Shown: piece after piece, positions 1 to 15,540 of the stretch
Layout of the letters: every line of letters begins with the position of its first letter
Position numbering within the stretch: position 1 is the first letter of the stretch
DNA from: Oscillibacter sp.
Lineage (GTDB): Bacteria > Bacillota > Clostridia > Oscillospirales > Oscillospiraceae
Direction of reading: 5' to 3'
Assembly: GCA_017446225.1 (NCBI GenBank)
Contig: JAFSRH010000018.1
Coordinates: 1 to 64,000 of the forward strand
Length of the DNA stretch: 64,000 bases
Made by a program: the position numbers and the translations under genes
The notes under the pieces: model-generated
What the model was told of the DNA's origin: nothing
What the model saw: only the letters and a program-made list of their open reading frames with translations
Databases searched by the model: none

Positions 1-219
1 GGCGCGGCGCGTATCGACAAAGGCAATGTCGTTCCAGTACGGCGGCCAGAGCTGGCGCAAGCCGTACTGTAACACGTGATTGAGGATCCGCGTCCGTCCG
101 CCCAGCGTCAGGACCATCATCGGGTAACAGGGTCCGGTGTGCGGACCGTTCACCGCCGACTGATTGTCCGCGCGGCGGAGACGGTCCGAAAACTGTCGGG
201 TCAATTCCTGTACAGTCAT
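1..219 (-). CDS. Unidentified protein, N-terminal part (cut by window edge)
   Basis: An open frame runs from an ATG at 219 to the left edge, giving 73 residues with no stop. A GGAGG lies 7 bases upstream of the ATG, which makes this start convincing. The N-terminus begins MTVQELTRQFSDRL and contains VLTLGGRTRILNHVL and the aromatic run LRQLWPPYWND. I do not recognise the family. It begins 19 bases after the stop of the tubulin-like gene on the same strand, so it is very probably translated from the same mRNA and may work with that protein. The truncated end prevents any domain call. Confidence 0.6.
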   Translation of the reverse strand, partial: MTVQELTRQFSDRLRRADNQSAVNGPHTGPCYPMMVLTLGGRTRILNHVLQYGLRQLWPPYWNDIAFVDTRRA

Positions 220-238
220 AAGCAACCTCCGGAAAGGC

Positions 239-3200
239 TCAAATCTCGTTGTCCAGACAGAACATCCGGAAACGCTGGAAGAAGTCCTTTAAAAAGGCCT
301 GAATTTCCGCGCCGTTCTCCCAGTTCCCGGCCAGCTCCATGAGAATGGACTGCCGGTTTTGCGGCATGGACTCTTTAAGGGCCATTCCCGCGGCGCGGAG
401 TTCGGGCGCGTTTTCGCGGTAACGCTTCTGGTACTCCCGGCGAATGCGTCCCTGCGCCTCCGCGCTGAGTTTCCGGTAGTTCAGGAAGGCTTGATAGGGC
501 GGTATGCGCGCGTACGGATATTCCCCGCTGAAGTCGCACAGCGTGACGGGCATACCATCGTTTTCATACGTGACGGCGCGTCCGTTCATCACGAGCACGC
601 CCGTAAAGAGCGCCTCGCAATAGTCGTTCATGATACGCTTCCGGGCTTCGGCCTCCTGCGCCTGCCGTTCGTTCAGACGCTTCATTTCGGCGTCCTTCTC
701 GTCCGTGGCGGTCAGGACGGCCTCGGCCTGTTCCAGCGTGTCCAGCGTCCCGGCGATTCCGGCGTGATAGGCGGGGGACGACACGAAATGGTCCTCCTGT
801 ACGCGTAAAATAATTTCCTCCTCGCTGCGGTCGCCGTCCTGCGGAAGTCCGTCCCCGGTGGGGCGGAGCGGACGCCGGAGCCGTTCCCGGACCGCTTCCG
901 CCGCCGCGTACAGGGCGGGCATGGCGTCCGGGCTGTGCGTCTGGTCCACCAGCGTCCGACAGGATACCGCCGCGTCCCGAAGTCCGTTCACGTCCGGCAC
1001 GGCGTAAAAGTTGCTGTCATTGTCGAGCAGATTCCGCGCGCGGGCGCGTTTCCAGAGGGCGCGGGCGGAGAGAATCGGCTTCTGCAAGTCGGGGGGCAAG
1101 TCCGAACAGCTCTCCGACAGGACGCTTTGCGGCATAATGGAGGGCAGATTCCGCCAGTCGTTGAAGCGCATTCCCGGCACGGGCTTTCCCTCGTACGAGT
1201 GCCGCCCCACCGAACGGGAGGAATAAAACATCTGCTCGTAGTTCTGGCAGTTGTTGTACGCGCTCAGAGGCAGTCCGCACGCGCTGGACATGACGAAAAT
1301 CCGGTCCGTCAGGGCGCTTGTTTTCAGGCCCCAGAGCGAGTCCTCCGCGTTACGCCGCCGCGCCGCCGCCGCAATCGGGGCCGATTCCGCCGGATACGAC
1401 AGGAACGCCAGTTTGGAGGTACCGCTTTCCTGCCAGATGGAATTGTTGAAGTAGAACAGCGGCCGGGCCTTTTCCGTCAACGGACGAATCCAGTCATTGT
1501 AAATACAGTGGGACAGCGCGTCGTCGTCCAGCCGGGAACCCTCCTGCGCCTCGTACTTATCGCGCAAGAAATTGGTAATCGTACGGTTGGCGAAGTTTTC
1601 AAAGGCGGTTTTCAGGAAGAAGTCGGTGACCAGCCGCGTAATTCGTCCCTCGTCCTCCTGTAGCCACTCGTCCGCGCGCTGTAACATCAGCGTCATGAAG
1701 GAGTTGAACATATTGGCGGCGTCCAGACGGCGGATTTCCGCGTCAAGCGCCGGACGGAGTTCCGAGACGCTCATCATCGGCGTGGCGAACCCTTCCAGAT
1801 TCTGATGAATCGCGTGGGAGGCGAGCGCCTGCCGGTTGTCCTCGAAGGTGTCGGTCAGGTTCTGCGTCACCCGGCTGAGGCGGATATAGTAGTTACTGGA
1901 CGCGTCCATGACCTGTTCCCGGAAGTCGTGCAGAACGCGTTTCAGGTGCTGACAGGTGACAAGTTCCAGTTCGTGTTGTTCGTGGGCGCTCAGGTAGTAT
2001 TCGTACGCCTCGAACCGCGCGCGGTTGCCGAACAGCCCCCGCGAACGGCCTTCAAAGTTCATCCGGGCGTTGTCGTAATCCTGCTGACAGGCCGGCGTAC
2101 GCTGGGACGCCTCCTCGTAACGCGCCTCATTGCGGCGGATCCAGCCGTCTATCAGGGTAATGAGGTTGTGCTTCTCCGCCGTGGAGACAATGCCGTAAGC
2201 GTACAGCGGCCCGCGCTTCACGTCCCGTATGACCGGCTCCAGCGCGTTGCGGATACGCTGTATCAGGGAATTCGGGTCGGCATCGTCCGACATATACTTG
2301 GCGTTGGCCTGCAGACGCGCCTTTTTCGCGGCGGTCTGTTTGGCGTAATGGTCCACAAGGTCCTTGTTGCCGTAGTCGCGGACAAACTTCCAGTCGTCCG
2401 TATAGGGAAGGTATTCTTCCGGGGCGGCGTCCTTCTGGACCTCCCGGAACAGCGCGTTATAGACCTCCTCCTCCGTCTCCGCCCCCGGCGCGAGCGCGTG
2501 AAACGACAGCTCCTCCACCTCCGCCTGTTCCGGACGGTTCCGCCGAATCCCCGCGAACCGGTGGAACAGTTCGGAAGCCAGATACGTGTTAATCTCCCGT
2601 AACGGCACGCTTGCGCACGCCGCCCCAATGATACAGTAATCCATACAGGCCCCGGTCAGCTTCTTCTGGTTGGCCTCCCCTATCATGGACTGGAAGTTGG
2701 AAAGGTGCTGTTGCAAGTCAAAGGTAGCGTTGGAGTCGGTGAGGAAGTCCATGAGGTACTCGGCCGTGACGTTCATGGCGTAGTCGTAGGCCTGCGCGAT
2801 GGAGTTGTTGTCCTGATCGGTGGCGCAAATGAGGTGGCACATATCCACGGGGGCCGCCGTCCACGGGACCGGCGGACGGTTCGCCTGATACATCTGGGAA
2901 AATCCGCCGCCGTTGAACTGTAGGTTCATACAGTAGTCGAGTTCCTGCATGGACGCGTAGCCGTTCTTGCAGATGTAGTCCCGGACGCTGGAATTGGCGC
3001 GCGGAACGGGCCATAGATTCACGTCCGGAAGGAAGAAGTAGCCGAAAATCGTGACGGCCCCCAGCCGGTCGGCGATGGACCGGATCAGGTAGCACACGTC
3101 CAGAAAGCACCCGGACCCGGTCCCGCCGCTCAGGCCCGAAAAGACGTGAATGTTCACGCGGGGATTGCTCAGGCCGATTTTCGCCTTTTCAATTTCCTGT

Positions 3201-3724
3201 TCCAATTTGCCGATAAAGTTTCCGGCGCGGTCCATAAACATAAACCGTCCCACTTGCCGGATACCGCCCGCGCCGGCGTCCGTCAGGTCCGGTAGGCGGA
3301 TGGTTTCGTATTCCAGCCACGACAACTCTTTCCGGTGGCGCAAAGCCTGTTTATTCTGAAAGGCGCGTTGCAGTTGGTTGTTGGCGATGGAAAAAAATTC
3401 GCTGTCGGAGAGCGGCATAATCTGTTCGGCGGAGGAACTGTTGTCCGGACGCTTGTTCGGGTCCTGTCGTAAGGCGCCTCTGCGGCTGGCCTCGGCGCTG
3501 TCCACGCCCAAGAAACGGATATGGGAATAAGTGGGGACCGCCGCGCCGGGGATGTCCGGTTTCAGGCGGTCATAGACCTGCGTTTTGATGGTCCGGATAC
3601 AGTGTACGCCGGTACCGCCCAGCCCGATCAGGATGCTGGCGGTATTGCGCGCCTGCTCCGCCTGTTGTCCGGCGGAGATGATACCGCCGCCGGTACTCAA
3701 AAGCAGTCTGGCGTAACTTGACAT
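239..3724 (-). CDS. Tubulin/FtsZ-like domain protein (Tubulin_2-type), 1161 aa
   Basis: This is a very large tubulin-superfamily relative. The N-terminal third carries a Rossmann-like glycine loop, ILIGLGGTG (near residues 31-39), then FLGVDSAE, then the tubulin/FtsZ signature SGLSGGTGSG (near 196-205) followed by CFLDVCYLIR. The last is the classic GTP-phosphate loop. The remaining 900 or so residues are largely helical and charged, with no domain I recognise, and no membrane segment was seen. The ATG at 3724 has GGAGG 7 bases upstream. Family knowledge: giant bacterial tubulin-like proteins near VWA proteins have been predicted to form polymers or remodel membranes, but have little experimental work. 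It follows the VWA gene on the same strand. It is not a cell-division FtsZ, being three times too long and lacking the FtsZ C-terminal layout. Confidence 0.8.
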   Translation of the reverse strand: MSSYARLLLSTGGGIISAGQQAEQARNTASILIGLGGTGVHCIRTIKTQVYDRLKPDIPGAAVPTYSHIRFLGVDSAEASRRGALRQDPNKRPDNSSSAEQIMPLSDSEFFSIANNQLQRAFQNKQALRHRKELSWLEYETIRLPDLTDAGAGGIRQVGRFMFMDRAGNFIGKLEQEIEKAKIGLSNPRVNIHVFSGLSGGTGSGCFLDVCYLIRSIADRLGAVTIFGYFFLPDVNLWPVPRANSSVRDYICKNGYASMQELDYCMNLQFNGGGFSQMYQANRPPVPWTAAPVDMCHLICATDQDNNSIAQAYDYAMNVTAEYLMDFLTDSNATFDLQQHLSNFQSMIGEANQKKLTGACMDYCIIGAACASVPLREINTYLASELFHRFAGIRRNRPEQAEVEELSFHALAPGAETEEEVYNALFREVQKDAAPEEYLPYTDDWKFVRDYGNKDLVDHYAKQTAAKKARLQANAKYMSDDADPNSLIQRIRNALEPVIRDVKRGPLYAYGIVSTAEKHNLITLIDGWIRRNEARYEEASQRTPACQQDYDNARMNFEGRSRGLFGNRARFEAYEYYLSAHEQHELELVTCQHLKRVLHDFREQVMDASSNYYIRLSRVTQNLTDTFEDNRQALASHAIHQNLEGFATPMMSVSELRPALDAEIRRLDAANMFNSFMTLMLQRADEWLQEDEGRITRLVTDFFLKTAFENFANRTITNFLRDKYEAQEGSRLDDDALSHCIYNDWIRPLTEKARPLFYFNNSIWQESGTSKLAFLSYPAESAPIAAAARRRNAEDSLWGLKTSALTDRIFVMSSACGLPLSAYNNCQNYEQMFYSSRSVGRHSYEGKPVPGMRFNDWRNLPSIMPQSVLSESCSDLPPDLQKPILSARALWKRARARNLLDNDSNFYAVPDVNGLRDAAVSCRTLVDQTHSPDAMPALYAAAEAVRERLRRPLRPTGDGLPQDGDRSEEEIILRVQEDHFVSSPAYHAGIAGTLDTLEQAEAVLTATDEKDAEMKRLNERQAQEAEARKRIMNDYCEALFTGVLVMNGRAVTYENDGMPVTLCDFSGEYPYARIPPYQAFLNYRKLSAEAQGRIRREYQKRYRENAPELRAAGMALKESMPQNRQSILMELAGNWENGAEIQAFLKDFFQRFRMFCLDNEI

Positions 3725-3794
3725 GGCAAATCCTCCTGTTATCAAAATATGGCCCGTCCGGTACGGTCGGAGGCCCGGACGGGTTCATAGTCAT

Positions 3795-5990
3795 TTACGG
3801 CCTCGGGGGTTTGGGCGGTTTGGGCACTTTGCGTTTCGGGGGCCGTGGCGGCTTGGGCGGTTTGGGCGGACGCGCCGCGCGGATCGGCGTCTTGCTGGTG
3901 AACTGTATCATGAGCCGGTTTCCGGGGTGGTCGGGGGTCAGGATACTGACTTTCTGCCCGCTCCGGACGGTGACTTTCCGGGTCCCGCCCGCCGGGACGC
4001 CCGGAAGCGCCGCCTGTACGGGCTTGTGAAGGCGCAGAACGACTGCCGATTTCCCGCCCGGATAAAACGTACAGCGTCCGGGAATCAGTCCGAAGCCGCT
4101 TTCCAGATTTTCCACGCCGAAGCGGGAAAGCGGGTACGGCCCTTTTTTCGGGGACTGTACGAATGTACGCGGGGAGATACTCCCGCCGATTTCCGTACTG
4201 ATTTCGATGGTCCCGTGATAGGGGGCGTAAATACGGGCGAATGTAGCCGCGAGACAGAGCGCGGCAAGCAGAAACAGCACAATCAACAGCGGAATCAACG
4301 GGTTCGGACGCTCCGCCCCGGAGACTTCCACGTACAGTTCCACGCTCTGTCCGGCGGCGTCCGTCACGGAGACAATGAAACTGCCCGTTGCAAGGTCGAA
4401 ACGCTCCGCGGAGAGGATTCCGCCCGACAGCGCGGCCTCCACGCCTTCCGGGGTACGCAGCAGGGCATACGAGAGCGTCACGGGGGACTCGTCCTCCACG
4501 TACCGGGTCAAATCCAGTGACAGGGCGTCCCCGCGGTAGAGTTTCAGCGTGACGGGGTCCTCAAGGACGCGCGGGGGATTGTCCACGGGCGGCGGCGCGG
4601 AAAAGGTCCGCTCCACCCAGTCCGACAGAAACTGACAGGGTTCAATCGGGAAGGAGCGTACGTTCCGCGCGTCCTCGGCAACGGTCAGTTCGCCCGGGGC
4701 GGATATCCGTACCGCCAGACGGTAGGTACCCAGTTCGGACGGCTCAAACTCCGCGGCAAAGCCGTTTCCGTCCGGGGACGCCTTCATGGTTTCCCGGTAG
4801 GGTTCCGTGGTCACGGCGTTTTCGGATACGGCCATCAATTCCGCCTGAAAGCCTTCATACTGTTCGGCGCGGTCCGCGGTCCGTCCTCCGGCCGCCAGCG
4901 TGGCGCGGATTTCACACGGGTTCGTGTCCGATACCGACACGAGCACCTGTAAATCGGCGTTGTAGAGCAAACGCAGACGCACGGTGTCGCCTTGACGCCC
5001 TTCCAAGTGCAACACCCAGTTTCCGGGCCGGTCCACGGGCACGTTTAACAGCGCGTCACCGCCGCTCAACAGTTCCGCGCGGGAAAGCGTCAGGCCTTGC
5101 GGACCGTTCAGGCGCACATCGTCCAGTTCGGCGAACGTCCGCCCGACCAGCATAATTTGCACGGAGTCCAGACCGAACCCCGGCACCGTAAAGGGAATGT
5201 CCAGTACGCCGTCACGGAATACCAGCGGCGCGTCGTCCGGCTCCGGAATATAGACCGTGTCCGTGCCCACCGATTCCGTCAGCAGCGCGAAGAGTTCTTC
5301 CGACAGGTAGCGGTTGGAGTTCAGTTCCCGGAAGTAACGCTCATCGGACGCGATCTGCCGCATTTCCGACAGGTCCGCCGCGCCGTTCATGTTCAGGCAG
5401 AGCGTGAGAATGGGAATGTTCCGTTCCCGGGCGGCGCGTATGGCGTCCGCCTTGAGCGTCTCGGAACGCTCCTGCGCGGCGGCGTTGCGGCCCAAATCCG
5501 TAAGACCGTCGCTGACCAGCAGAATGGCCGCGCGCGCGTCCGGCGTACCCCTCCCGGCCAGCCGTACCGCCTCCCAGAGCGCGGCGCCGGTGTTCGTATA
5601 CTGCCCCTTGGCTTTCGCGGACGCCGCTTCCAGCATATCCCGGCTCAGGTCCGAACCGTTCAGGGGTTCGGGGTCGCTGGACGCGTCAATGTCGTTCGAG
5701 AAAATCACGTAGCCGACTTCATAGCGTTCGTGACTTCCGGAAGCGGTATCGCGGCGGAGATAGTCCAAAAACTCCTCAATGGCGTCAAAACGGAACCCGT
5801 CCGGGTCCGTGCCGGGGACACGCTGTCCGGTGCCCCGGTCGGTGTAGCCGGACAGCGAACGGCTCGCGTCCAGAACAAGAATCAGTTTCCGTCCGGCCTT
5901 AAGGTCCGAAGCGGCCCCGGCCCACAGGACCGGTATCCACAACAGGACCAGTAACAGTAACGATAGTTTTCTTGCAAGTCGCCGGATCAT
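3795..5990 (-). CDS. Secreted/membrane VWA-domain protein with proline-rich cytoplasmic tail
   Basis: The protein has 731 residues. A basic, hydrophobic signal peptide (about 1-28) leads into a von Willebrand A domain with a complete MIDAS start, LVLDASRSLSG (DxSxS), and LLVSDGLTDLG. Beta-rich segments follow, including a cadherin-like stretch (VTLKLYRGDALSLDLTRYV). One membrane span (about 566-588, LLIVLFLLAALCLAATF) comes next. The cytoplasmic part of about 140 residues ends in repeated PPKPP/KPPRP units. The ATG at 5990 has GGGAGGG upstream at suitable spacing; an in-frame GTG six bases earlier is possible. It is placed between the glycosylation genes and the tubulin-like gene, in one operon. 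Inference: the ectodomain binds a ligand outside and the tail touches the tubulin-like protein inside. Confidence 0.8.
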   Translation of the reverse strand: MIRRLARKLSLLLLVLLWIPVLWAGAASDLKAGRKLILVLDASRSLSGYTDRGTGQRVPGTDPDGFRFDAIEEFLDYLRRDTASGSHERYEVGYVIFSNDIDASSDPEPLNGSDLSRDMLEAASAKAKGQYTNTGAALWEAVRLAGRGTPDARAAILLVSDGLTDLGRNAAAQERSETLKADAIRAARERNIPILTLCLNMNGAADLSEMRQIASDERYFRELNSNRYLSEELFALLTESVGTDTVYIPEPDDAPLVFRDGVLDIPFTVPGFGLDSVQIMLVGRTFAELDDVRLNGPQGLTLSRAELLSGGDALLNVPVDRPGNWVLHLEGRQGDTVRLRLLYNADLQVLVSVSDTNPCEIRATLAAGGRTADRAEQYEGFQAELMAVSENAVTTEPYRETMKASPDGNGFAAEFEPSELGTYRLAVRISAPGELTVAEDARNVRSFPIEPCQFLSDWVERTFSAPPPVDNPPRVLEDPVTLKLYRGDALSLDLTRYVEDESPVTLSYALLRTPEGVEAALSGGILSAERFDLATGSFIVSVTDAAGQSVELYVEVSGAERPNPLIPLLIVLFLLAALCLAATFARIYAPYHGTIEISTEIGGSISPRTFVQSPKKGPYPLSRFGVENLESGFGLIPGRCTFYPGGKSAVVLRLHKPVQAALPGVPAGGTRKVTVRSGQKVSILTPDHPGNRLMIQFTSKTPIRAARPPKPPKPPRPPKRKVPKPPKPPRP

Positions 5991-6005
5991 AGACACTCCC
6001 TCCCG

Positions 6006-7559
6006 TCATTGGACGCGAAGCCGTAAAAGTTTCGCGCCTTCATCGTAATTGTAAAGCTCCTCTACATCATACCCGGCGGCCCGAAATTCATTCAACATGG
6101 TGCTCAAATCGTCCCCGTTGTGGTCCGAGACAATGTAGAGCGTATCGGGCCAGTCGGCGCCGTAGAGGCTGTCGAAGTAGGCATGGTACGCCTCCCCGCT
6201 CTGTCCCTCGTACCAGTCCATGTACGTGACGCGGTTTTCGGTGTCCGCTGTGTAGCCGGGCGTCATGCGCACGTAGTAGGCGAATCCGCCATTGGCGGCG
6301 TAGTAGACAAGGGTCGTCTCCGCGGGGCCTCCGGCGTCATACCAGCGGTAGACCGCCTCCCGGATATCGTCCTTGATCCAGTTCTTGGACAGGCGCGTCT
6401 CCCACGAGAGCAGACACGAACAGGCGACAAAGCACAGGGCCGCGCCCAGTACGAACGCCGGGACGTTCCGGCGTTCCAACAGCGGCTCCTCGGACAGTAT
6501 CCGTACGCACTCCCAGAGCAGTACGAACGCGTAAGGAATCCACAGCGGCAGGAAGAACAGGTTGTAGCGGTTGCCGAAACCGCCGTAGGACATATCGGCG
6601 TAAATCCCCGCCTTGACCGCGAAGTAGTACAGGAACCACGTCAGGGCGTTGGCGCACACGAACGCCCGCGCCGTGGGCCGTCCCCAAATCAGGACCGCGG
6701 CCGACAACAGCAGGACCAGTCCCAGCAGGATCCGCGCGGACATTCCGGAGTAGTCCGGGCACAGATTCCAGCGGAATACCTCCATAAGACTGCGCAGGGT
6801 GTCGCGGAAAAAACCGTCGTGGAAGGAAATTACGGTCCCGGCGAACTCTCCGCCGCGCTGCATGGGCAGTTGTTTTTTCAGGAAAAGGAACCATAACGGC
6901 AGTCCGGCGCAGACAATCGCGGCCACGTATCCGGCGCACAGTTCCAGCGTCCGGCGCGCGCCGCGCATACGGAACAACGCCGTGAACGCCAGCGCCGCCA
7001 CCGGGAACGCCGCGCCGTACTGGCTGTACGCCGCCACAATGGCCCACACGATAAAGAACGCCATGGCCTTCCGGGACGGCTCCTCCACGAGACGGAACCA
7101 CGCGTACACGGTCCAAAACAGGCTGGCCAAGAGCAGACAGTATTCGGCGGCCTCTTGCCAGTAAAAGGCCATCCGGTACACGAACGCCGCGCCGCACACC
7201 GCCGCCGCGCCCAGCCACGCTTTCCCCGTGTACCGGCGTACGGTCCTGTGCAGTCCGGCCATGCCAACGAGGCCCGCGCAGACGCCGAAGAAGCGGAACC
7301 ACCATTCCGTATCGCTGACGCGCAACCAGAACCAGAGCATGACGTTGTACAGCGGCGGTTGCAGGGTGCTGACAATCCGCTCGTACATATTCGCGGTACG
7401 GGAGAACGGGAGCGGACCGATCAGCACTTTGGAATACCAGTATTCAATCGCTTCATCGAACCACAGGGCCGACATGGTCAGCCGGTGACAGCTCACCAGC
7501 AGGAACAGCGCGAAAGCCGCGCCGGAGAGGAAAAGATTCCTCTGTTTTGACTGTTTCAT
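6006..7559 (-). CDS. GT-C family polyprenyl-sugar dependent membrane glycosyltransferase
   Basis: This is a 517-residue polytopic membrane protein with about ten hydrophobic spans. The first extracytoplasmic loop carries ALWFDEAIEYWYS, matching the acidic loop-1 motif of GT39/GT83 (ArnT/PMT-like) enzymes, and is followed by QPPLYNVMLWFWLR. The C-terminal soluble part ends in a mixed alpha/beta region. Such enzymes move a sugar from polyprenyl phosphate to an acceptor on the outer face of the membrane. It lies 21 bases after gtrA and 15 bases before the VWA gene. A GGAGA is about 10 bases before the ATG. Acceptor unknown; the co-encoded VWA ectodomain is an attractive guess. Confidence 0.75.
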   Translation of the reverse strand: MKQSKQRNLFLSGAAFALFLLVSCHRLTMSALWFDEAIEYWYSKVLIGPLPFSRTANMYERIVSTLQPPLYNVMLWFWLRVSDTEWWFRFFGVCAGLVGMAGLHRTVRRYTGKAWLGAAAVCGAAFVYRMAFYWQEAAEYCLLLASLFWTVYAWFRLVEEPSRKAMAFFIVWAIVAAYSQYGAAFPVAALAFTALFRMRGARRTLELCAGYVAAIVCAGLPLWFLFLKKQLPMQRGGEFAGTVISFHDGFFRDTLRSLMEVFRWNLCPDYSGMSARILLGLVLLLSAAVLIWGRPTARAFVCANALTWFLYYFAVKAGIYADMSYGGFGNRYNLFFLPLWIPYAFVLLWECVRILSEEPLLERRNVPAFVLGAALCFVACSCLLSWETRLSKNWIKDDIREAVYRWYDAGGPAETTLVYYAANGGFAYYVRMTPGYTADTENRVTYMDWYEGQSGEAYHAYFDSLYGADWPDTLYIVSDHNGDDLSTMLNEFRAAGYDVEELYNYDEGAKLLRLRVQ

Positions 7560-7580
7560 GTGTGATATTGTCTCCGTTTT

Positions 7581-8003
7581 TCAAGAATTGCCGCGAAAAA
7601 TCAGAAGTTTGCTTGCGACATAGTTCAGCACCACCACAAGCACGTTGTCCAGCGCTTTGATCAGCAGGTCGTTCCAGCCCAGCACGTCCACGCACAGAAA
7701 CATACAGCCCAAGTCCAGCAGGCCGGTCGCCAGACGGCAGGAGAAAAACGACGCCATTTCCCGCGCGATTTCCGGAGCGGTCCGCGCCGCGCTGTGGAAC
7801 ACCCAACGGCGGTTTGTGACGTACGCGAACAGCACCGCCAGTACCCACGCGATCACCGTGGACGCCGTCACGCTCAATCCCAGCGGATACGCCGCCACCC
7901 AGTAGGACGCCATATTTACCAGCGTGGTACAGACCCCGAAAAACAGATACGGTATGACGTCTTGGTAACGCCTGTAAAGGCCTTTCCATTTCTCGAAGTC
8001 CAC
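7581..8003 (-). CDS. GtrA-family membrane protein (lipid-linked sugar flippase)
   Basis: A 140-residue protein with four predicted membrane spans and the GtrA pattern: FFGVCTTLVNMASYWV near the N-terminus, FAYVTNRRWVF between spans 2 and 3, and VLNYVASKLLIF at the end. GtrA proteins are associated with moving polyprenyl-phosphate-linked sugars across the membrane. A GTG start is used at 8003, with AAAGGA 8 bases upstream; it begins 2 bases after the GT2 stop, so the two are translationally coupled. It forms the middle step between the cytoplasmic GT2 and the GT-C enzyme. Confidence 0.85.
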   Translation of the reverse strand: MDFEKWKGLYRRYQDVIPYLFFGVCTTLVNMASYWVAAYPLGLSVTASTVIAWVLAVLFAYVTNRRWVFHSAARTAPEIAREMASFFSCRLATGLLDLGCMFLCVDVLGWNDLLIKALDNVLVVVLNYVASKLLIFRGNS

Positions 8004-8005
8004 GG

Positions 8006-8731
8006 TCAGCGTCCTTTCCCATCCCGTTTCATTTCCTTACGGAACGCCCGGAAATCTCCCAGCGCCTTCCAGCCGATTTTGACAATTTTCCGGATATTGA
8101 CGGAGTTGGTCCCCGCCCGACGCGGCCGGAACGTGATTTTCCGGAAACGTACCGGCTCGCCGTAGTAGGCGAAAAAGGTGGTCATCATGATGTTCGGCAG
8201 GTTGTAGTCGGGGTCCATGCGGGGCAGGTACTTTGCCACGGTGTCGGCGCGCATAAGGCGGAACGGCGCGTTGGCGTCCGGGACCGAAACCTTGAAGTAC
8301 AGGTTCAGCAACAGACACACCACTTTCTCCACGAACGCCCGGATTTTTCCGTCCCCGCGGTCCTTGCGGAAGCCGAAAATCCCCGCGTACTGGTTCCGCA
8401 ACGTCCAGAACGCTTCAAACTCCGCCGGGTTGGTCTGTCCGTCCGAATCCGTCTGAAAAATGTACGCCGCCCCGTTCCGGATGGCGTAATCGTACAGGGC
8501 AATGACTTTTGGTCCGTGCTGTGTGCCGGTGTCCGGGAGAATTTCCAGTTTCGGGAACTCGGCCCGCAAGGCCTCTAAAATGTCATGGGTGCCGTCCGTG
8601 CTTCCGCTGTCCGCAATCACCATGCGCGATGCCTCGTCCTTGCCGTCCAGTACCGGGTACCAAGCCCGTACGACTTCCTCAATGTTTTCTTCCTCATTAT
8701 AGGCGGGCATAACGAGATATAAACTGTCCAT
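8006..8731 (-). CDS. Family 2 glycosyltransferase, polyprenol-phosphate sugar synthase type
   Basis: The 241 residues have a GT-A fold typical of dolichol-phosphate-mannose synthase relatives. The N-terminal strand is LYLVMPAYNEEENIEEVV, followed by IADSGSTDGT, and the DxD-type motif FQTDSDGQTNP sits near residue 100. The late motif FRLMRADTV and the basic C-terminus (KEMKRDGKGR) also fit. It lacks the C-terminal membrane pair of GtrB, so it probably binds the membrane peripherally. It is the first gene of the operon, behind a good promoter at 8773-8801. It probably charges the polyprenyl phosphate that GtrA flips and the GT-C enzyme uses. Confidence 0.8.
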   Translation of the reverse strand: MDSLYLVMPAYNEEENIEEVVRAWYPVLDGKDEASRMVIADSGSTDGTHDILEALRAEFPKLEILPDTGTQHGPKVIALYDYAIRNGAAYIFQTDSDGQTNPAEFEAFWTLRNQYAGIFGFRKDRGDGKIRAFVEKVVCLLLNLYFKVSVPDANAPFRLMRADTVAKYLPRMDPDYNLPNIMMTTFFAYYGEPVRFRKITFRPRRAGTNSVNIRKIVKIGWKALGDFRAFRKEMKRDGKGR

Positions 8732-8772: not shown

Positions 8773-8801
8773 ATTATATACGCTCCGCGGGTGTTTTGCA
8801 A
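8773..8801 (-). promoter_or_regulatory. Promoter of the glycosylation/VWA/tubulin-like operon
   Basis: On the minus strand TTGCAA (8801-8796) is separated by exactly 17 bases from a perfect TATAAT (8778-8773). The start codon of the first gene lies about 40 bases downstream. This is the only strong promoter seen for the six-gene operon, whose intergenic gaps are otherwise short. Confidence 0.75.
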
Positions 8802-8831
8802 GCGTCAATTTGCCGGGCCGCCGGACACGGC

Positions 8832-9120: not shown

Positions 9121-10104
9121 TTACTCGCTTTCCGGTTCGTCTGGCTCACTGTCTTTTTCGTCCTCGTCATCCGCTTCGACCGGTTCCTCCGGATCGTCCT
9201 CCTTCTCCTCCTCATCCTCCTTGGACGTACCGAACGGAACAAAGGCGCGGCGTTGTTTTTTCGTTCTTTCGCGTTCCTCTTCCTCCGCTAAAAACGCCTC
9301 CTGAATGGCCTGCCATGTGAATTGTCCGCGGATATCCCCGGACAATTCCTCCGCGATTTCCTCTAAATTATGCGTTGGCTGATCATACAAACAGGCTTCG
9401 GAACCGTGCGCAATGGCTTTCCCTGTCATGGTTTTCATGATTCCGGCTTTGGCTTCCTCCTTGGTATCCCCAGTGATACGGGCATACATCGCCGCCAACA
9501 GGTCGATTCTTTTATCATCAAACACAGGCGCGTCCTCCCTTACCCATCCGCCGTACTTGTATTCCCATTGCCAGCCGCGAGTACGCCGGAGCAGACTTAC
9601 CGCCGCGTCCGAACGGAAACAAAATTGGTCCATGTCCTTTCGGGGTCGAATTTTATCCAAGACCGTCCGGAATCCCACTTTTCCACGCTGATATTTTCCA
9701 AGAAGGTCGGGAAGGGTCTGCTCATTCGGCGTTCTGGGCCTGACCCTGAGACTGTCGGCCAGACCGCCAACGATTACATCATACCGAAATGGTTTGGAAC
9801 GGCTTTTCGGAAAGTTCGGGTCCGGCAGACGGCAGTCCGTAATAAAATTCAGCCACTCCTTGTCATATTCCGGAAACAGCAGGACGGAAATTTCCGGTGA
9901 AGGTTGGAAAGCGTACTCATAGACCCAGTATTTACGCGGCGCCTTTCGCCACACCCAGTCCTGCGCCTGAAACGGAATGGACGTGACATAATATCCCTGT
10001 CCGAAGTCCGTGAAATGTTTTCCTTTGCGGTACGAGGGGTAATTGTGCGGGCGTATCGTCCCGTGATAAAGCAGAATCTTATGGTCCGGTACTTGAAAAG
10101 ACAT
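9121..10104 (-). CDS. Possible ADP-ribosyltransferase-fold protein (DUF3990-like) with acidic tail
   Basis: The protein has 327 residues. The N-terminus carries LLYHGTIRPHNYP, then KHFTDFGQGYYVTS and QAQDWVWRK, the H...Y spacing of the DUF3990 branch of the ADP-ribosyltransferase superfamily. A middle part of unclear fold follows. The C-terminus is a basic patch (RTKKQRRAF) and then about 50 residues almost entirely of Glu, Asp, Ser and Pro. The ATG at 10104 follows a GGGGGTG; an in-frame GTG nine bases earlier is less likely. It is divergently transcribed from parE with only 135 bases between start codons. Substrate and activity are unknown; family assignment is from motif memory, not a search. 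Confidence 0.5.
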   Translation of the reverse strand: MSFQVPDHKILLYHGTIRPHNYPSYRKGKHFTDFGQGYYVTSIPFQAQDWVWRKAPRKYWVYEYAFQPSPEISVLLFPEYDKEWLNFITDCRLPDPNFPKSRSKPFRYDVIVGGLADSLRVRPRTPNEQTLPDLLGKYQRGKVGFRTVLDKIRPRKDMDQFCFRSDAAVSLLRRTRGWQWEYKYGGWVREDAPVFDDKRIDLLAAMYARITGDTKEEAKAGIMKTMTGKAIAHGSEACLYDQPTHNLEEIAEELSGDIRGQFTWQAIQEAFLAEEEERERTKKQRRAFVPFGTSKEDEEEKEDDPEEPVEADDEDEKDSEPDEPESE

Positions 10105-10168
10105 CCCACGCACCCCCGTTTTTTAAATCATATCACATTTCCCGATACCTGTCAAGGAATTGCCGGGG

Positions 10169-10197
10169 TTGCAATCGGCGTGGAAGTGTGCTATACT
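10169..10197 (+). promoter_or_regulatory. Promoter of the parE-TA-parC operon
   Basis: TTGCAA (10169-10174), a 17-base spacer and TATACT (10192-10197). Transcription would begin near 10204, leaving a short leader of about 35 bases before the TTG start of parE at 10240. No other promoter is evident before parC, though the toxin-antitoxin pair may have one inside the end of parE. Confidence 0.75.
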
Positions 10198-10239
10198 GCT
10201 ACCCATTCCGCCCTTTGCGGCGTTTTGGAGGAAGCAGTC

Positions 10240-12240
10240 TTGAAAAAGCAGTCCCTGAAAGCAGATTACGGCAACGACAGCATTTCATCCCTGAAAGGCG
10301 CCGAACGCGTGCGCAAGCGTCCGGGGGTGATTTTCGGCTCCGATGGCCTTGACGGCTGTGAACACGCCGTTTTTGAAATTCTCTCCAACTCCATTGACGA
10401 AGCCCGTGAGGGGCACGGCAGTCTGATTACGGTCCGGCGCTTTCTGGACCATTCCATAGAGGTACGGGACGCCGGACGCGGCTGTCCCGTGGACTGGAAC
10501 GAGAAGGAGGGCCGTTACAACTGGGAACTCGTGTTCTGTGAGCTGTACGCCGGGGGCAAGTACAACAACCTCACAGGCGACAGTTACGAGTATTCGCTGG
10601 GCCTGAACGGTCTGGGCGCGTGCGCCACGCAGTACGCCTCCCGCTACATGGACGTCACCGTCCGGCGGGACGGGTACGAGTATCAGTTGCACTTTGAGCG
10701 CGGGGAAATCGTGGGCGACCTTCAGAAAACGCCTCTTCCGCGTAACCGCGCGCGCGAAACCGGGACCCGTATCCGCTGGCTCCCGGACTTGGACGTGTTT
10801 ACCGATATCGCCATTCCGCCAACGTTCTTTCAGGACGTGATCAAGCGTCAGGCGGTGGTCAACGCCGGAATTTCCTTCCGGTTCGAGAACGAGACCGCAC
10901 CCGGAGAATTTGAAACCACGGATTTTCTCTACCCCAACGGTATCGCCGACTATGTCGGGGAGTTGTCCGGCGATGGCGCCCTGACCGATACGGTATTCTG
11001 GTCCGCCGAACGGCAGGGACGCGACCGGCAGGACAAGGACGAATACAAAGTACGTTTATCGTGCGCGTTCCGCTTCTCCAACCGCGTCCACGTCATTGAG
11101 CATTACCACAACTCCAGCTACCTTGAACACGGCGGAAGTCCGGAAAAAGCGGCGAAATCCGCGTTTGTGTCGGCCTTTGACAAGTACCTCCGCGATCAGG
11201 GGAAGTATCAGAAAAACGAGTCGAAAGTCGCGTGGGAAGATATCGAGGACTGCCTTGTGCTGGTCTCCAACAACTTTTCCACCCAGACTTCCTACGAAAA
11301 CCAGACCAAAAAATCCATCACCAACAAGTTCATCCGGGAGGCCATGACGGAGTTTTTACGCTCCAATCTGGAAGTCTGGTGCATTGAGAACCGGCAGGAC
11401 GCCGACCGCGTGGCCGAACAGATTCTGATCAACAAGCGGAGCCGCGAGAGCGCCGAAAAGGCCCGCCTCAACATCAAACGGAAACTTTCCGGTAATATTG
11501 ATATCGCCAACCGCGTACAGAAGTTCGTGGACTGCCGTTCCCGGGACCCGGCCCGGCGTGAAATCTACATTGTGGAGGGCGATTCCGCGCTCGGAAGCGT
11601 AAAACTCAGCCGGGACGCCGAATATCAGGGCATTATGCCCGTACGCGGAAAAATCCTGAACTGCCTGAAAGCCGACTACTCCCTGATTTTCAAAAGTGAA
11701 ATCATTATGGACCTGATTCGTGTCTTGGGCTGCGGCGTGGAGGCGCAGAACCGTCACGTCAAGGACATGGCGGCCTTTGACCTGAAAAATCTGCGCTGGA
11801 ACAAGGTCGTGATTTGTACGGACGGCGATGTGGACGGCTTCCAGATTCGTACGCTGATTTTAACCATGCTGTACCGCCTGACGCCGACTCTCATTGAACA
11901 GGGTTACGTCTACATTGCGGAGACGCCCCTGTTTGAAATCAACTGCGGGGACAAGACGTGGTTCGCCTACTCGGACGCGGAGAAAAACGACATTTTAAAG
12001 ACGCTGTCCGGCAAAAAAGTCAAAGTGGACCGCTCCAAAGGTCTGGGCGAGAACGACCCCGACATGATGTGGCTGACCACCATGAACCCGGAGACGCGCC
12101 GTCTGATACGCGTCATGCCGGAGGACATGGAGGCGACCGCGCGCGTGTTTGAACTGTTGCTCGGCAACAATCTGCAAGGGCGTAAGGAGCATATCGCCGC
12201 CCACGGCTACGAGTATCTGGAAATGGCCGATATTTCGTGA
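10240..12240 (+). CDS. parE: DNA topoisomerase IV subunit B (ParE-type)
   Basis: This is the ATPase subunit of a type IIA topoisomerase that unlinks replicated chromosomes; 666 residues from a TTG start with GGAGG 8 bases upstream. GHKL ATPase motifs are present: RKRPGVIFGSDG, FEILSNSIDEA, RDAGRGCPVD and the lid LGLNGLGACATQY. Toprim motifs follow: IVEGDSALGSV and CTDGDVDGFQIR. A second GyrB in this window (47048-48964) is more canonical, and the pairing with parC here supports the ParE assignment. The GHKL lid (YSLGLNGLG) differs from the GyrB form (VSGGLHGVG). The gene leads an operon interrupted by a toxin-antitoxin pair. Confidence 0.85.
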   Translation: MKKQSLKADYGNDSISSLKGAERVRKRPGVIFGSDGLDGCEHAVFEILSNSIDEAREGHGSLITVRRFLDHSIEVRDAGRGCPVDWNEKEGRYNWELVFCELYAGGKYNNLTGDSYEYSLGLNGLGACATQYASRYMDVTVRRDGYEYQLHFERGEIVGDLQKTPLPRNRARETGTRIRWLPDLDVFTDIAIPPTFFQDVIKRQAVVNAGISFRFENETAPGEFETTDFLYPNGIADYVGELSGDGALTDTVFWSAERQGRDRQDKDEYKVRLSCAFRFSNRVHVIEHYHNSSYLEHGGSPEKAAKSAFVSAFDKYLRDQGKYQKNESKVAWEDIEDCLVLVSNNFSTQTSYENQTKKSITNKFIREAMTEFLRSNLEVWCIENRQDADRVAEQILINKRSRESAEKARLNIKRKLSGNIDIANRVQKFVDCRSRDPARREIYIVEGDSALGSVKLSRDAEYQGIMPVRGKILNCLKADYSLIFKSEIIMDLIRVLGCGVEAQNRHVKDMAAFDLKNLRWNKVVICTDGDVDGFQIRTLILTMLYRLTPTLIEQGYVYIAETPLFEINCGDKTWFAYSDAEKNDILKTLSGKKVKVDRSKGLGENDPDMMWLTTMNPETRRLIRVMPEDMEATARVFELLLGNNLQGRKEHIAAHGYEYLEMADIS

Positions 12241-12261
12241 AGCGTGAAAGGAGCGTTGACA

Positions 12262-12525
12262 ATGGCACAGGCTACTATGACCGTAAGCGTTGACGAATAC
12301 GAGCGGGACCGTTTTAATGAGTTCTGCGCCGCCGCCGGACTGGACGCTTCCACCGCGTTTCGTATGTTCGTAAAAGCGGTACTGCGGGAAAACCGGATTC
12401 CGTTTGAAATCTCCGGCGACCCGTTTTTTAATCCTGTCAATCAGGCGCGGGCGCTGAAGTCCATGCGGGAAATCCGCGAGGGAAAAGGAACCGCTCATGA
12501 ACTGATTGAGGCAGAGGATGAGTGA
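12262..12525 (+). CDS. RelB/DinJ-type antitoxin
   Basis: An 87-residue protein. The N-terminal MAQATMTVSVDEYERDRFNE fits a ribbon-helix-helix DNA-binding half, followed by AAAGLDASTAFRMFVKAV as in RelB/DinJ proteins. The C-terminal part (KSMREIREGKGTAHELIEAE) is the likely toxin-binding arm. The ATG at 12262 has AAAGGAG 8 bases upstream. It starts 21 bases after parE and overlaps the toxin gene by 8 bases, the usual antitoxin-first order. It probably represses its own transcription together with the toxin; no operator was identified. Confidence 0.85.
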   Translation: MAQATMTVSVDEYERDRFNEFCAAAGLDASTAFRMFVKAVLRENRIPFEISGDPFFNPVNQARALKSMREIREGKGTAHELIEAEDE

Positions 12526-12787
12526 AAAAATCTGGTCTGATGAAGCGTGGGCGGACTACCTTTATTGGCAGTCACAGGACAAAAAGACCCTGAAACGAAT
12601 CAATCAGTTGATTCGGGATATCGAACGAAACGGTTGTCTTACGGGTCTTGGAAAACCGGAAGCATTGCGCGGAAATCTGCAAGGGGAGTACAGCAGACGG
12701 ATTGACGATACCAACCGGCTTGTTTACCATACGGAGGGCGGGAGAATTTATATTCTCTACTGCCGCGGACACTACGGAGACCGTTGA
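12518..12787 (+). CDS. YoeB/Txe-family mRNA interferase toxin
   Basis: An 89-residue RelE-fold toxin of the Txe/YoeB type, which cleaves mRNA at the ribosome. Signature pieces are IWSDEAWADYLYWQSQDKKT at the start, GLGKPEALRGNLQGEYSRRI in the middle and the C-terminal RGHYGDR. These hold the Glu, Arg, His and Tyr positions used by YoeB, so the enzyme looks intact. The start is the ATG inside the antitoxin's last codons. YoeB is usually paired with a YefM antitoxin; here the partner is RelB/DinJ-like. Confidence 0.88.
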   Translation: MSEKIWSDEAWADYLYWQSQDKKTLKRINQLIRDIERNGCLTGLGKPEALRGNLQGEYSRRIDDTNRLVYHTEGGRIYILYCRGHYGDR

Positions 12788-12805
12788 AGGGGGATGTAAA
12801 GAACT

Positions 12806-13291
12806 ATGTCTATTGAAATGATTACGGCTCTTTCGTCCATTGTAGTCTCTTTGCTCACACTGGTATATACTATCATATCCAATGATAAGCAGTCTGTTTT
12901 ACAGAGCGTTACCGCAAATCGAATGGACTGGATTCAACAGGTACGCTCGTTGCTGGGTGATTTTGCGCATGCTTACCGGACGCATAATACGGAAAATATG
13001 GCGGATATTGAGGCGCGATTAGAGTTGTTTATGAGGCGCGATGTAAAAGAATATCAGTATGTGCTGAATCACTTGAAACATTGTATTAAACATGAATACA
13101 ATGAAAACGATTACGAAAAATTACTGTCTCTTTCCTCATATACGCTTTCCCGCGCATGGCAAAGAATCAAAGTTGACGCCAGAAAATACCATATCACGGA
13201 TAAAACCGCAGATCAGATTGTCACTAAGCAAGTACAACCGTTGCTTGACATTGTCAAATCTTACGATACAAAGCAAAAAAAACAAGCGTAA
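12806..13291 (+). CDS. AT-rich hypothetical membrane protein, 161 aa
   Basis: I do not recognise this family. One N-terminal hydrophobic segment (ITALSSIVVSLLTLVYTII) is followed by a helical cytoplasmic part with ANRMDWIQQVRSLLGDFAHA and a basic tail (SYDTKQKKQA). The gene is clearly richer in A/T than its neighbours. It lies 18 bases after the toxin and 11 bases before parC, so it is transcribed with both. Base composition and position suggest it came in with the toxin-antitoxin pair. The ATG at 12806 has GGGGG about 12 bases upstream, a rather long spacing. Confidence 0.7.
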   Translation: MSIEMITALSSIVVSLLTLVYTIISNDKQSVLQSVTANRMDWIQQVRSLLGDFAHAYRTHNTENMADIEARLELFMRRDVKEYQYVLNHLKHCIKHEYNENDYEKLLSLSSYTLSRAWQRIKVDARKYHITDKTADQIVTKQVQPLLDIVKSYDTKQKKQA

Positions 13292-13302
13292 AGGAACGTG
13301 TT

Positions 13303-15540
13303 ATGCCAAGGAAGAAAGTAACCGGCGAAACCGGCCATAAAAACAACCCGAATGTCATGGGACTTCGCGCCGCTATCGTGGAGGAACCCATTACCCGTAC
13401 GCTGGAGACCAATTATATGCCCTACGCCATGAGCGTGATTGTCTCCCGCGCGATTCCGGAAATTGACGGCTTTAAGCCCTCCCACCGGAAACTGTTGTAC
13501 ACGATGTACAAAATGGGCCTTTTGGGCGGAGCGCGTACCAAGTCCGCCAACATTGTCGGGCAGACCATGCGCCTGAATCCCCACGGGGACGCCGCCATCT
13601 ACGACACCATGGTCCGCCTTTCCAGCGGATACGGCGCGTTGCTGACGCCCTTTGTCGACTCCAAGGGCAATTTCGGCAAGGCGTATTCCCGCGATATGTC
13701 CTGTGCCGCCCCGCGCTACACGGAAGCCCGTTTGACCCCGATCTGTCACGAACTGTTCCGCGATATCGACTCCGATACCGTGGACTTTGTCGACAACTAC
13801 GACAATACCATGCGGGAGCCGTCCCTGTTGCCGACCACGTTTCCGAACATTCTGGTGTCGGCCAACAGCGGAATCGCCGTGGGCATGGCCTCACAGTTCT
13901 GCGGCTTCAACCTGAAGGAAGTCTGCGACACCGCCGCCGCCTACCTGAAACGCCCCGACTGTGACCTGTCCGCCACGCTCCCCGCCCCCGACTTCCCCAC
14001 CGGCGGCGAACTCCTCTGGGACCCTGCCGCCATCCGCGACATTTACGAAACCGGACGCGGAAGTGTCCGGGTCCGCGCGAAGTACCGCTATGTCAAGGCG
14101 GAAAACCTGATCGAAATTTACGAAATTCCCTATTCCACCACGTCCGAAGCGATTCTGGACAAAGTCGAAAAGCTGATTAAGGAAGGGAAAGTCCGGGAAA
14201 TTTCCGATATGCGGGACGAAACGGACCTTTCCGGACTCAAACTCACCATCGACCTGAAACGCGGCGCGGACCCTGACAAACTCATGTCCCGTCTCTTCCG
14301 GCAAACCCCGCTGGAAGATTCCTTTGCCTGTAATTTCAACGTTCTGATTCACGGCGTGCCGAAAGTGCTGGGCGTACGGCAGATTTTAGCGGAGTGGAGC
14401 GCGTGGCGTACGGAATCCGTACGGCGGCGGGTGTCGTTCGTGTTACAGCGCCGGGAGGAACGTTTGCACCTTCTGCGCGGCCTACAGAAAATTCTCCTCG
14501 ACATCGGCCGCGCCGTGGACATCATCCGGAATACGGAAGAGGAATCCGAAGTCGTGCCGAATCTCATGATAGGGTTCGGCATTGACCGGACACAGGCGGA
14601 ATATGTCGCGGAAATCAAGCTCCGGAACCTGAACCGGACCTATCTGTTGAACCGTACGGAGGAAATCACGGGGCTGGAATCGGAAATCACGGACTTGCGC
14701 GCCACGCTGGACGACCCGAAACGCGTCCGGAAAATCATCACGGACGAACTCAAAGCCGCCGCGAAAAAGTACGGTCAGCCCCGCCGTACCACGATTCTGT
14801 ACGAGTACGCGTCCGCCGCCGACACGGAGGACGCCGCCCCGGCGGAGTATCCCGTGCACGTCTTTCTGTCCAAGGAAGGCTACTTTAAGAAAATCACGCC
14901 GCTGTCCCTCCGTATGGGCGGGGAACAGAAGTTCAAAGAGGGGGACGCCCTGCGGCAGACGTATCAGACCACGTCCGGCGCGGAAATCATGTTCTTTACG
15001 GACCGCTGTCAGGTCTACAAGACGCGTCTGAGCGAGTTTGACGACACCAAGGCCAGCGTACTGGGCGAATACCTCCCGGCAAAATTAGGCATGGACCCCG
15101 GCGAAAACGTGCTTTACGCCGTCCTGCCCGGCGACTACTCCGGCTTCCTGCTCTTCTTCTACGAGAACGGCAAGGCGGCCCGTGTCCCGCTGTCCTCTTA
15201 CGCGACCACGTCCAACCGCCGCCGCCTCACCGGGGCCTACTCCGACAAATCGCCGCTGGCCGCCATGCTCTGCCTCACCGAAGAAACGGAAATCGCGCTC
15301 TACTCCACGGAGCCGCGCTGTCTGCTCTTCCACACCTCCGCCCTGACCCCAAAGGCGACCCGTACCACACAGGGCGCCGCCGTCATGACGCTGAAAGGCG
15401 CGCATACCGTGGCAAACGCGCTTCCGGTATCGGAGACGCCTGTCAGCAATCCGGCGCGGTACCGGGCGCGTACCCTGCCTTCCGCCGGCGCGTTACTGCG
15501 TCAGGACGACACCGAAGAAAAGCAGTTGAGCATAATTTGA
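13303..15540 (+). CDS. parC: DNA topoisomerase IV subunit A (ParC-type)
   Basis: This is the DNA-cleaving subunit that pairs with ParE; 745 residues. The start MPRKKVTGETGHKN is preceded by AAAGGA at 7 bases. Motifs: YAMSVIVSRAIPEIDGFKPS, NPHGDAAIYDTMVRLSS in the quinolone-determining region, and AAPRYTEARL with the catalytic tyrosine. The C-terminal half includes a coiled region and beta-pinwheel-like blades. The quinolone-contact serine position is alanine (GDAA). It ends next to a NUDIX gene on the same strand. Confidence 0.87.
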   Translation: MPRKKVTGETGHKNNPNVMGLRAAIVEEPITRTLETNYMPYAMSVIVSRAIPEIDGFKPSHRKLLYTMYKMGLLGGARTKSANIVGQTMRLNPHGDAAIYDTMVRLSSGYGALLTPFVDSKGNFGKAYSRDMSCAAPRYTEARLTPICHELFRDIDSDTVDFVDNYDNTMREPSLLPTTFPNILVSANSGIAVGMASQFCGFNLKEVCDTAAAYLKRPDCDLSATLPAPDFPTGGELLWDPAAIRDIYETGRGSVRVRAKYRYVKAENLIEIYEIPYSTTSEAILDKVEKLIKEGKVREISDMRDETDLSGLKLTIDLKRGADPDKLMSRLFRQTPLEDSFACNFNVLIHGVPKVLGVRQILAEWSAWRTESVRRRVSFVLQRREERLHLLRGLQKILLDIGRAVDIIRNTEEESEVVPNLMIGFGIDRTQAEYVAEIKLRNLNRTYLLNRTEEITGLESEITDLRATLDDPKRVRKIITDELKAAAKKYGQPRRTTILYEYASAADTEDAAPAEYPVHVFLSKEGYFKKITPLSLRMGGEQKFKEGDALRQTYQTTSGAEIMFFTDRCQVYKTRLSEFDDTKASVLGEYLPAKLGMDPGENVLYAVLPGDYSGFLLFFYENGKAARVPLSSYATTSNRRRLTGAYSDKSPLAAMLCLTEETEIALYSTEPRCLLFHTSALTPKATRTTQGAAVMTLKGAHTVANALPVSETPVSNPARYRARTLPSAGALLRQDDTEEKQLSII

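Follow-up and report, generated by a model that had tools for sequence, protein, structure and literature searches.

A predicted transmembrane glycosylation cassette at the head of a tubulin-like/VWA gene run in one Oscillospiraceae species group

The DNA analysed here (64,000 nucleotides of Oscillibacter sp., positions 1 to 64,000 of contig JAFSRH010000018.1 in assembly GCA_017446225.1; hereafter the window) begins with six minus-strand genes, in which a three-gene set for a predicted sugar transfer across the membrane (GT2, GtrA and GT-C; hereafter the cassette) precedes the genes for a membrane VWA protein and a tubulin-like protein. Judged by its protein domains, the core of this gene run is an already described GAP1-N2/tubulin/vWA system (GAP1-N2, DO-GTPase2, Tubulin_2 and an extracellular-vWA protein). 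The new element is the GT2-GtrA-GT-C cassette on this known core, and in the genomes searched it is restricted to one clade. A scan of open reading frames (ORFs) and Pfam families gave the following features from the promoter-like element downward, with intergenic gaps of 2, 21, 9, 70 and 20 bp in operon order:

8773 to 8802, minus strand: promoter-like element CTTGCAAAAC-N8-AGCGTATATAAT ahead of the GT2 gene, conserved in 6/6 cassette loci
8006 to 8731, minus strand: GT2, a GT-A glycosyltransferase, predicted ArnC/GtrB-like polyprenyl-phosphate sugar synthase (PF00535, 41.1 bits)
7581 to 8003, minus strand: GtrA family membrane protein, a putative flippase or membrane partner of GT2 (PF04138, 89.7 bits, cut-off 26.1)
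6006 to 7559, minus strand: GT-C glycosyltransferase of PMT_2 type with WFDE near its N terminus (PF13231, 37.7 bits, cut-off 26.1)
3795 to 5996, minus strand: VWA protein with signal peptide, predicted extracellular VWA domain with a metal-ion-dependent adhesion site (MIDAS), one span and a basic, proline-rich cytoplasmic tail (PF00092, 27.7 bits, cut-off 23.8)
239 to 3724, minus strand: tubulin-like protein of 1161 aa (Tubulin_2, FtsZl1 family; PF13809, E 1.2e-56, 192.9 bits)
1 to 218, minus strand: 5' part of a conserved gene, B2, cut by the contig end and running on into contig C41 (locus L019); 86-89% identity to the proteins of L013, L014 and L015

An earlier reading of the window from its letters (hereafter the sequence-only reading) had described six genes in one direction behind one promoter. 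The ORFs and Pfam matches confirm the six genes, the sixth being real though cut by the contig end, and one conserved promoter-like element lies ahead of the first of them. We infer that the six genes form one co-transcribed operon; an additional promoter inside the 70-bp gap between the VWA and tubulin-like genes is possible. Base 1 of the window is the start of contig G000:C56, and it was found that the start of the window and the end of contig C41 of the same genome have 141 identical bases in common. B2 (645 aa at full length in genome G008) thus continues on C41. There the gene order is B2, B3, double-GTPase, GAP1-N2 protein and secreted protein, with genes for SpoVAD and RNase Y beyond. 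An unbroken version of this gene order could be identified in G026 (L041) and, from the VWA gene onward, in G008 (L043).

The class of the core was invisible from the window because half of the operon sits on the other contig. The GAP1-N2 protein (L019:4421-7120) matched PF20013 with 30.4 bits (cut-off 24). For the double-GTPase, the profile scan was made on the G008 orthologue (PF19993, 41.8 bits, cut-off 27), to which the copy in the window's genome is 92% identical. PF13809 spans residues 38-396 of a 1168-aa frame of the tubulin-like protein, with a long C-terminal part beyond, and the signature SGGTGSG reported in the sequence-only reading was confirmed; G200, G201, T202, G203 and G205 were invariant in 7/7 aligned proteins, and the protein probably binds GTP. 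As far as the available text of Kaur et al. (2020; PMC7159879) goes, their GAP1-N2/DO-GTPase tubulin theme has GAP1-N2, DO-GTPase2, a tubulin protein with a long C terminus and an extracellular vWA with a span in common with the present gene run, whereas here one tubulin was present, no second vWA-YtkA gene was seen and no fibronectin type III (FNIII) repeats were found, and GT2-GtrA-GT-C in front and the secreted protein at the 3' side are additions. The sequence-only reading was also right in noting tubulin-like/VWA pairs as predicted membrane-remodelling systems: in the accessible part of Makarova and Koonin (2010; PMC2875224), FtsZl1-vWA operons likewise have Tubulin_2/FtsZl1 beside vWA together with a GTPase, whereas glycosylation genes are not named in that part and OmpA was not seen here. 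The genes beyond the window give the named class.

In the Protein Data Bank (PDB), the sequence matches of GT2 were ArnC and GtrB sll0501 (E 2.8e-5 to 7.4e-5). Near the N terminus of GT-C, WFDE was kept in 7/7 homologues, and acidic motifs of this kind are catalytic in GT-C enzymes. A DxD or modified DxD motif is mentioned for GT-C enzymes in the available text of PMC8035078, where the multi-component transmembrane glycosylation systems (CsbB/GtcA/YfhO, GtlA/GtcA/GtlB and GtsABC) also consist of a GT-A enzyme, a GtrA protein and a PMT-2 GT-C; in contrast with them, the cassette here heads a tubulin/vWA operon and its GT2 has no clear membrane span. Taken together, GT2, GtrA and GT-C would be a full set for making a lipid-linked sugar and transferring it outside, with enzyme activities predicted from families. 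This agrees with the earlier proposal that the set makes, flips and transfers a sugar. As a separate observation, GT2 of G068 (L039:799-2052) has a tail of ∼180 residues rich in acidic repeats, partly encoded by degenerate 39-bp repeats, and the tail of GT2 in G071 is shorter.

The distribution of the cassette was much narrower than that of the core. Six genomes, all from a single species group, were found to carry it (the window's own genome, G018, G026, G070, G071 and G068), and in the first five it was linked to the VWA and tubulin-like genes. In G068, the contig with GT2-GtrA-GT-C is 3.9 kb long and breaks off within GT-C, and a fragment with VWA and tubulin-like genes lies on a different contig. 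Of the tubulin loci, 34 had 6 kb or more of upstream sequence, and matches to GT2, GtrA and GT-C (E 1e-5) were present in four of these (G018, G026, G070 and G071). A VWA gene was located upstream of the tubulin-like gene in 42 of 46 loci with at least 2 kb upstream (of 51 examined), that is, in 41 by script and in L047, which the script missed because two tubulin genes are present there; part of these matches arise by construction, since several VWA queries were taken from the same loci. No upstream VWA match was obtained by this search in L063, L064 and L065 (G029) and in L017. GtrA was located within 10 kb of Tubulin_2 (Pfam) in 5/41 genus and order genomes (the same five linked genomes) and in 0/9 phylum genomes, while it occurred anywhere in the genome in 39/41 and 8/9, respectively. 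These samples were 43 genus and order positives minus G152 and G460 (weak or partial matches) and 12 new phylum positives minus G524, G724 and G828 (below cut-off); a missing neighbour tells little in G317, G328 and G399, for example, where the tubulin gene is close to a contig end. On these counts, with all five positives in one species group, a general coupling of tubulin-like proteins to glycosylation genes was rejected. A GT-C of the window's type was found at E 1e-10 in 7/86 genus genomes (in five it adjoins the tubulin gene, in one its contig is cut, and in one it has other neighbours) and at E 1e-15 in 1/394 sampled order genomes, namely the window's own. The coupling of glycosylation and tubulin-like genes described by the sequence-only reading was observed in the five linked genomes. 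Relatives that lack the glycosylation genes, which that reading had named as a finding that would refute it, do exist outside the species group, so the coupling is clade-specific. Separately, membrane and glycosyltransferase-like genes (by eye) lie on the opposite strand in G055 (L011:12330-19985), divergent from the VWA-tubulin operon.

The GT2 gene was the first gene of the operon in 6/6 cassette loci, at three chromosomal sites: the operon adjoins a gyrB-like gene in the window's genome, G071 and G068; in G070 and G026 it follows genes that resemble ATP synthase by eye and a gene for adenylosuccinate lyase (identified by Pfam in G070 and by ORF likeness in G026); and in G018 a gene for a class I tRNA synthetase is nearby. 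The promoter-like element was found in 15 of 117 loci examined, every one a cassette locus, while the sequence farther upstream was unlike between the sites. In the window the element is a single copy (0.00 expected in shuffles). TTGCAA-17-TATAAT at 8801-8773 falls inside it; the promoter consensus scan by itself was at chance level (3 found vs 2.9 expected). The same gene order behind the same element at three sites is what would be expected if the cassette truly belonged to the operon instead of lying next to it by chance. In the window, the operon is separated from the gyrB-like gene by a gene for a DUF3990 protein with a Glu/Asp-rich C terminus (9121-10113, minus strand), and the neighbouring region also contains genes for gyrase/topoisomerase IV-like B and A subunits (9904-15540, plus strand) with a RelB antitoxin/YoeB toxin pair between them (12244-12787).

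An RpoB tree of 20 genomes placed the window's genome, G018, G070, G071, G068 and G008 in one clade with support of 100/100 (24 genomes were queried and 21 matched; the partial G001 was excluded, and G026, G003 and G086 had no RpoB match). Between the window's genome and G018, the synonymous divergence (dS) of GT2, GtrA and GT-C was 0.76, 1.04 and 0.66, similar to that of the VWA (0.93) and tubulin-like (0.76) genes. All three cassette genes are under purifying selection, with ratios of nonsynonymous to synonymous divergence (dN/dS) of 0.061-0.190 in 12 comparisons. The cassette appears to have been gained once, in the ancestor of the species group.

Several features of the core vary or could not be matched to the published version. 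The second tubulin gene of the Firmicutes version was not found in the window's genome (96% complete), which gave one PF13809 match; tubulin number varies, with two or more tubulin-like ORFs in L047, L050, L051, L054 and L067. The possibility, raised by eye, that B2 is a second, degenerate tubulin was not supported (hhalign probability 0.3%, a weak test with a tubulin profile of 5 sequences; best PDB match E 0.16). The vWA-YtkA gene of the Firmicutes version was not seen in this gene run, and neither was a recognisable protein with FNIII repeats, which evolve rapidly according to PMC7159879; B2, B3 and the secreted protein all gave no Pfam match. The secreted 3'-end protein was considered by eye as a cell-wall hydrolase, a reading that was not borne out: even at E 5 no Pfam family matched, and the best PDB match (E 0.21) was unrelated-looking. 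It was found in 8/86 genus genomes and is not strictly tied to the operon: the copy of G070 is on another contig, and in G018, where the contig breaks off within the GAP1 gene, no copy was found. Its homologues L095 and L096 (G029 and G083), with one TAA inside the match, lie away from a tubulin operon or occur without one. At the 3' end of cassette-less DO-GTPase2 operons (L045, L047, L054, L058, L061 and L062), a conserved ∼360-aa protein, which looks kinase-like by eye and has no Pfam match over cut-off, is followed by membrane proteins; in the window's genome, this place is taken by the secreted protein, with SpoVAD next. Within the order there is also another arrangement of tubulin and vWA genes (L069-L088, L010 and L011), which consists of VWA, a tubulin-like protein, a ∼650-aa two-span protein and a ∼1400-aa multi-span protein; among the 20 loci L069-L088, the last was present in 14, compared with DO-GTPase matches in 3.

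The VWA protein was also analyzed as a possible acceptor. By script, its N terminus is signal-like, a further membrane span follows, the MIDAS motif reads DASRS, and the cytoplasmic end is rich in Pro, Lys and Arg, which confirms the signal peptide, span and proline-rich cytoplasmic tail read earlier; signal peptide and span together place the VWA domain, by prediction, outside the cell. The net charge of the last 40 residues was above zero in 17/18 VWA proteins, so the basic C terminus is general, and 14-15 prolines in this segment were found only in the five cassette VWAs (0-10 in the others). It is plausible that the tail contacts the tubulin-like protein. The sequence-only reading had also suggested that the VWA ectodomain is glycosylated, which is not supported by residue composition or conservation. 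The Ser/Thr share was 0.118-0.151 in the five cassette VWAs vs 0.128-0.207 in 13 cassette-less ones, and NXS/T counts were 1-3 vs 1-8, with no excess in either case. Across six clade members, 30/72 ectodomain Ser/Thr were invariant, compared with 39/85 Asp/Glu, 14/30 Asn/Gln, 17/50 Lys/Arg and 282/531 residues overall. A few clade-specific acceptor sites remain conceivable, since 12 Ser/Thr positions kept in the six members are Ser/Thr in 0/9 cassette-less VWAs.

Our preferred explanation, to which we give a probability of about 0.6, is that a tubulin-like system of the GAP1-N2/DO-GTPase2 type, attached to the membrane and controlled by GTPases, was extended by three genes for transmembrane glycosylation, which the ancestor of a single Oscillospiraceae species group associated with the rumen acquired. 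Within the cytoplasm, GT2 would load a sugar onto polyprenyl phosphate, GtrA would carry the lipid-sugar across the membrane or anchor GT2, and GT-C would pass the sugar to an acceptor outside the cell. The VWA ectodomain may sense or hold something outside through metal-dependent binding, its basic tail would meet the tubulin-like protein, and the double-GTPase and GAP1 may set the assembly of that protein. Several results weigh against this explanation. Most relatives with the same core have no cassette, and the other 30/30 tubulin loci with 6 kb or more of upstream sequence had no match to the window's own GT2, GtrA and GT-C proteins used as queries at E 1e-5. In G008 (95% complete), which has the core with a tubulin-like protein 95% identical, no GT-C was found; as its contig ends inside the VWA gene, both an assembly gap and a true loss are possible. 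Even at E 1, GT-C matched no sequence in the PDB, and no NCBIfam equivalog reached its cut-off for GT2, GtrA or GT-C, so that the sugar was not assigned in this way. Finally, an 819-bp interval between GtrA and GT-C in G071 holds an extra HAD phosphatase gene (PF08282), a predicted function in line with sugar chemistry. A stronger version, in which tubulin-like assembly is coupled through the vWA receptor to local glycosylation outside as one regulated machine, and the glycan sets what the vWA binds or where the scaffold sits, seems unlikely.

The alternatives differ mainly in what the cassette modifies and whether it belongs to the system. If it were an ordinary wall-polymer glycosylation set placed before the VWA gene, sharing only the promoter and having no functional tie to the tubulin system, its restriction to one clade and the 30 loci that manage without it would be accommodated, as would its nearest cassette-free GT-C relative (G025, 48-51% identity), which has different neighbours and lies one gene away from a WecG/TagA wall gene. 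However, the set stays first in the operon with its promoter-like element at three chromosomal sites, and within the genus G025 and G068, the latter with a cut contig, were the only genomes in which a GT-C was seen without VWA-tubulin; we regard such a passenger as rather doubtful. Dedicated protein glycosylation, in which the cassette modifies the VWA ectodomain or the secreted 3'-end protein and alters stability or binding, is a possibility to be taken seriously, although not the one we prefer. The cassette shares its gene run with a surface-protein gene, the 12 clade-conserved Ser/Thr positions would fit, and GT2 is weakly similar to PgfS (28 bits, cut-off 500). The Pgf system of Streptococcus mutans, as described in the available text of PMC5856776, offers a precedent: it acts on proteins, and its GT-A enzyme and PMT-2 membrane protein are co-transcribed with the gene of an acceptor, cnm, as is predicted here with a surface-protein gene; it differs in that no GtrA is named, an epimerase and a second membrane protein are present, and the acceptors are the adhesin and WapA. 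On the other side stand the Ser/Thr share and NXS/T counts of the five cassette VWAs, which are not above those of 13 others, the conservation of Ser/Thr no better than that of other polar residues, and the same VWA type without the cassette in most relatives. In a review of Gram-positive systems (PMC8035078, available text), the acceptors of PMT-2 GT-Cs are lipoteichoic acid, wall teichoic acid and secondary wall polymers, and the position of the G025 GT-C close to a WecG/TagA gene likewise speaks for a polymer. An envelope glycopolymer near the complex is our tentative first choice of acceptor, ahead of the VWA or another operon-encoded surface protein, which is a weaker candidate. Within the cassette, GtrA might serve as the membrane anchor of GT2, a split form of a GT2-GtrA fusion, with a different protein flipping the lipid-sugar. 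Archaeal dolichyl-phosphate mannose synthases include such fusions, PF04138 is named GtrA/DPMS in Pfam, and GT2 has no span at a hydropathy threshold of 1.8 and one weak stretch at 1.3 (best 19-residue mean 1.54), although the script undercounts spans, since it found only 1 in GtrA at 1.8. Pairs of a glycosyltransferase and a separate membrane protein are noted in the available part of PMC8035078, but the GtrA proteins of comparable Gram-positive systems are thought there to be flippases; we regard anchoring as the lesser of the two roles, though a credible one.

Within the literature searched, where most subscription journals fall outside coverage, no tubulin/vWA system joined to GtrA-type genes was found, in agreement with the sequence-only reading, which knew of no description with a dedicated glycosylation module; the available texts of PMC5898192 and PMC9871819 do not report one, and neither GtrA nor polyprenyl is mentioned in the main text of PMC7159879. 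The latter names glycosyltransferase domains as effectors in related MoxR-vWA systems, which makes a sugar-transfer module beside a vWA gene less surprising. For the tubulin-like/vWA GTPase systems, PMC7159879 and PMC2875224 give, in their available parts, functional predictions and not tests. The cassette alone does not show what the core does. With its predictable chemistry at the head of the gene run, however, it provides a testable handle on a class of systems with predicted functions: its acceptor should be readable by mass spectrometry, and it points to the outer face of the membrane and the cell wall as the site of action.

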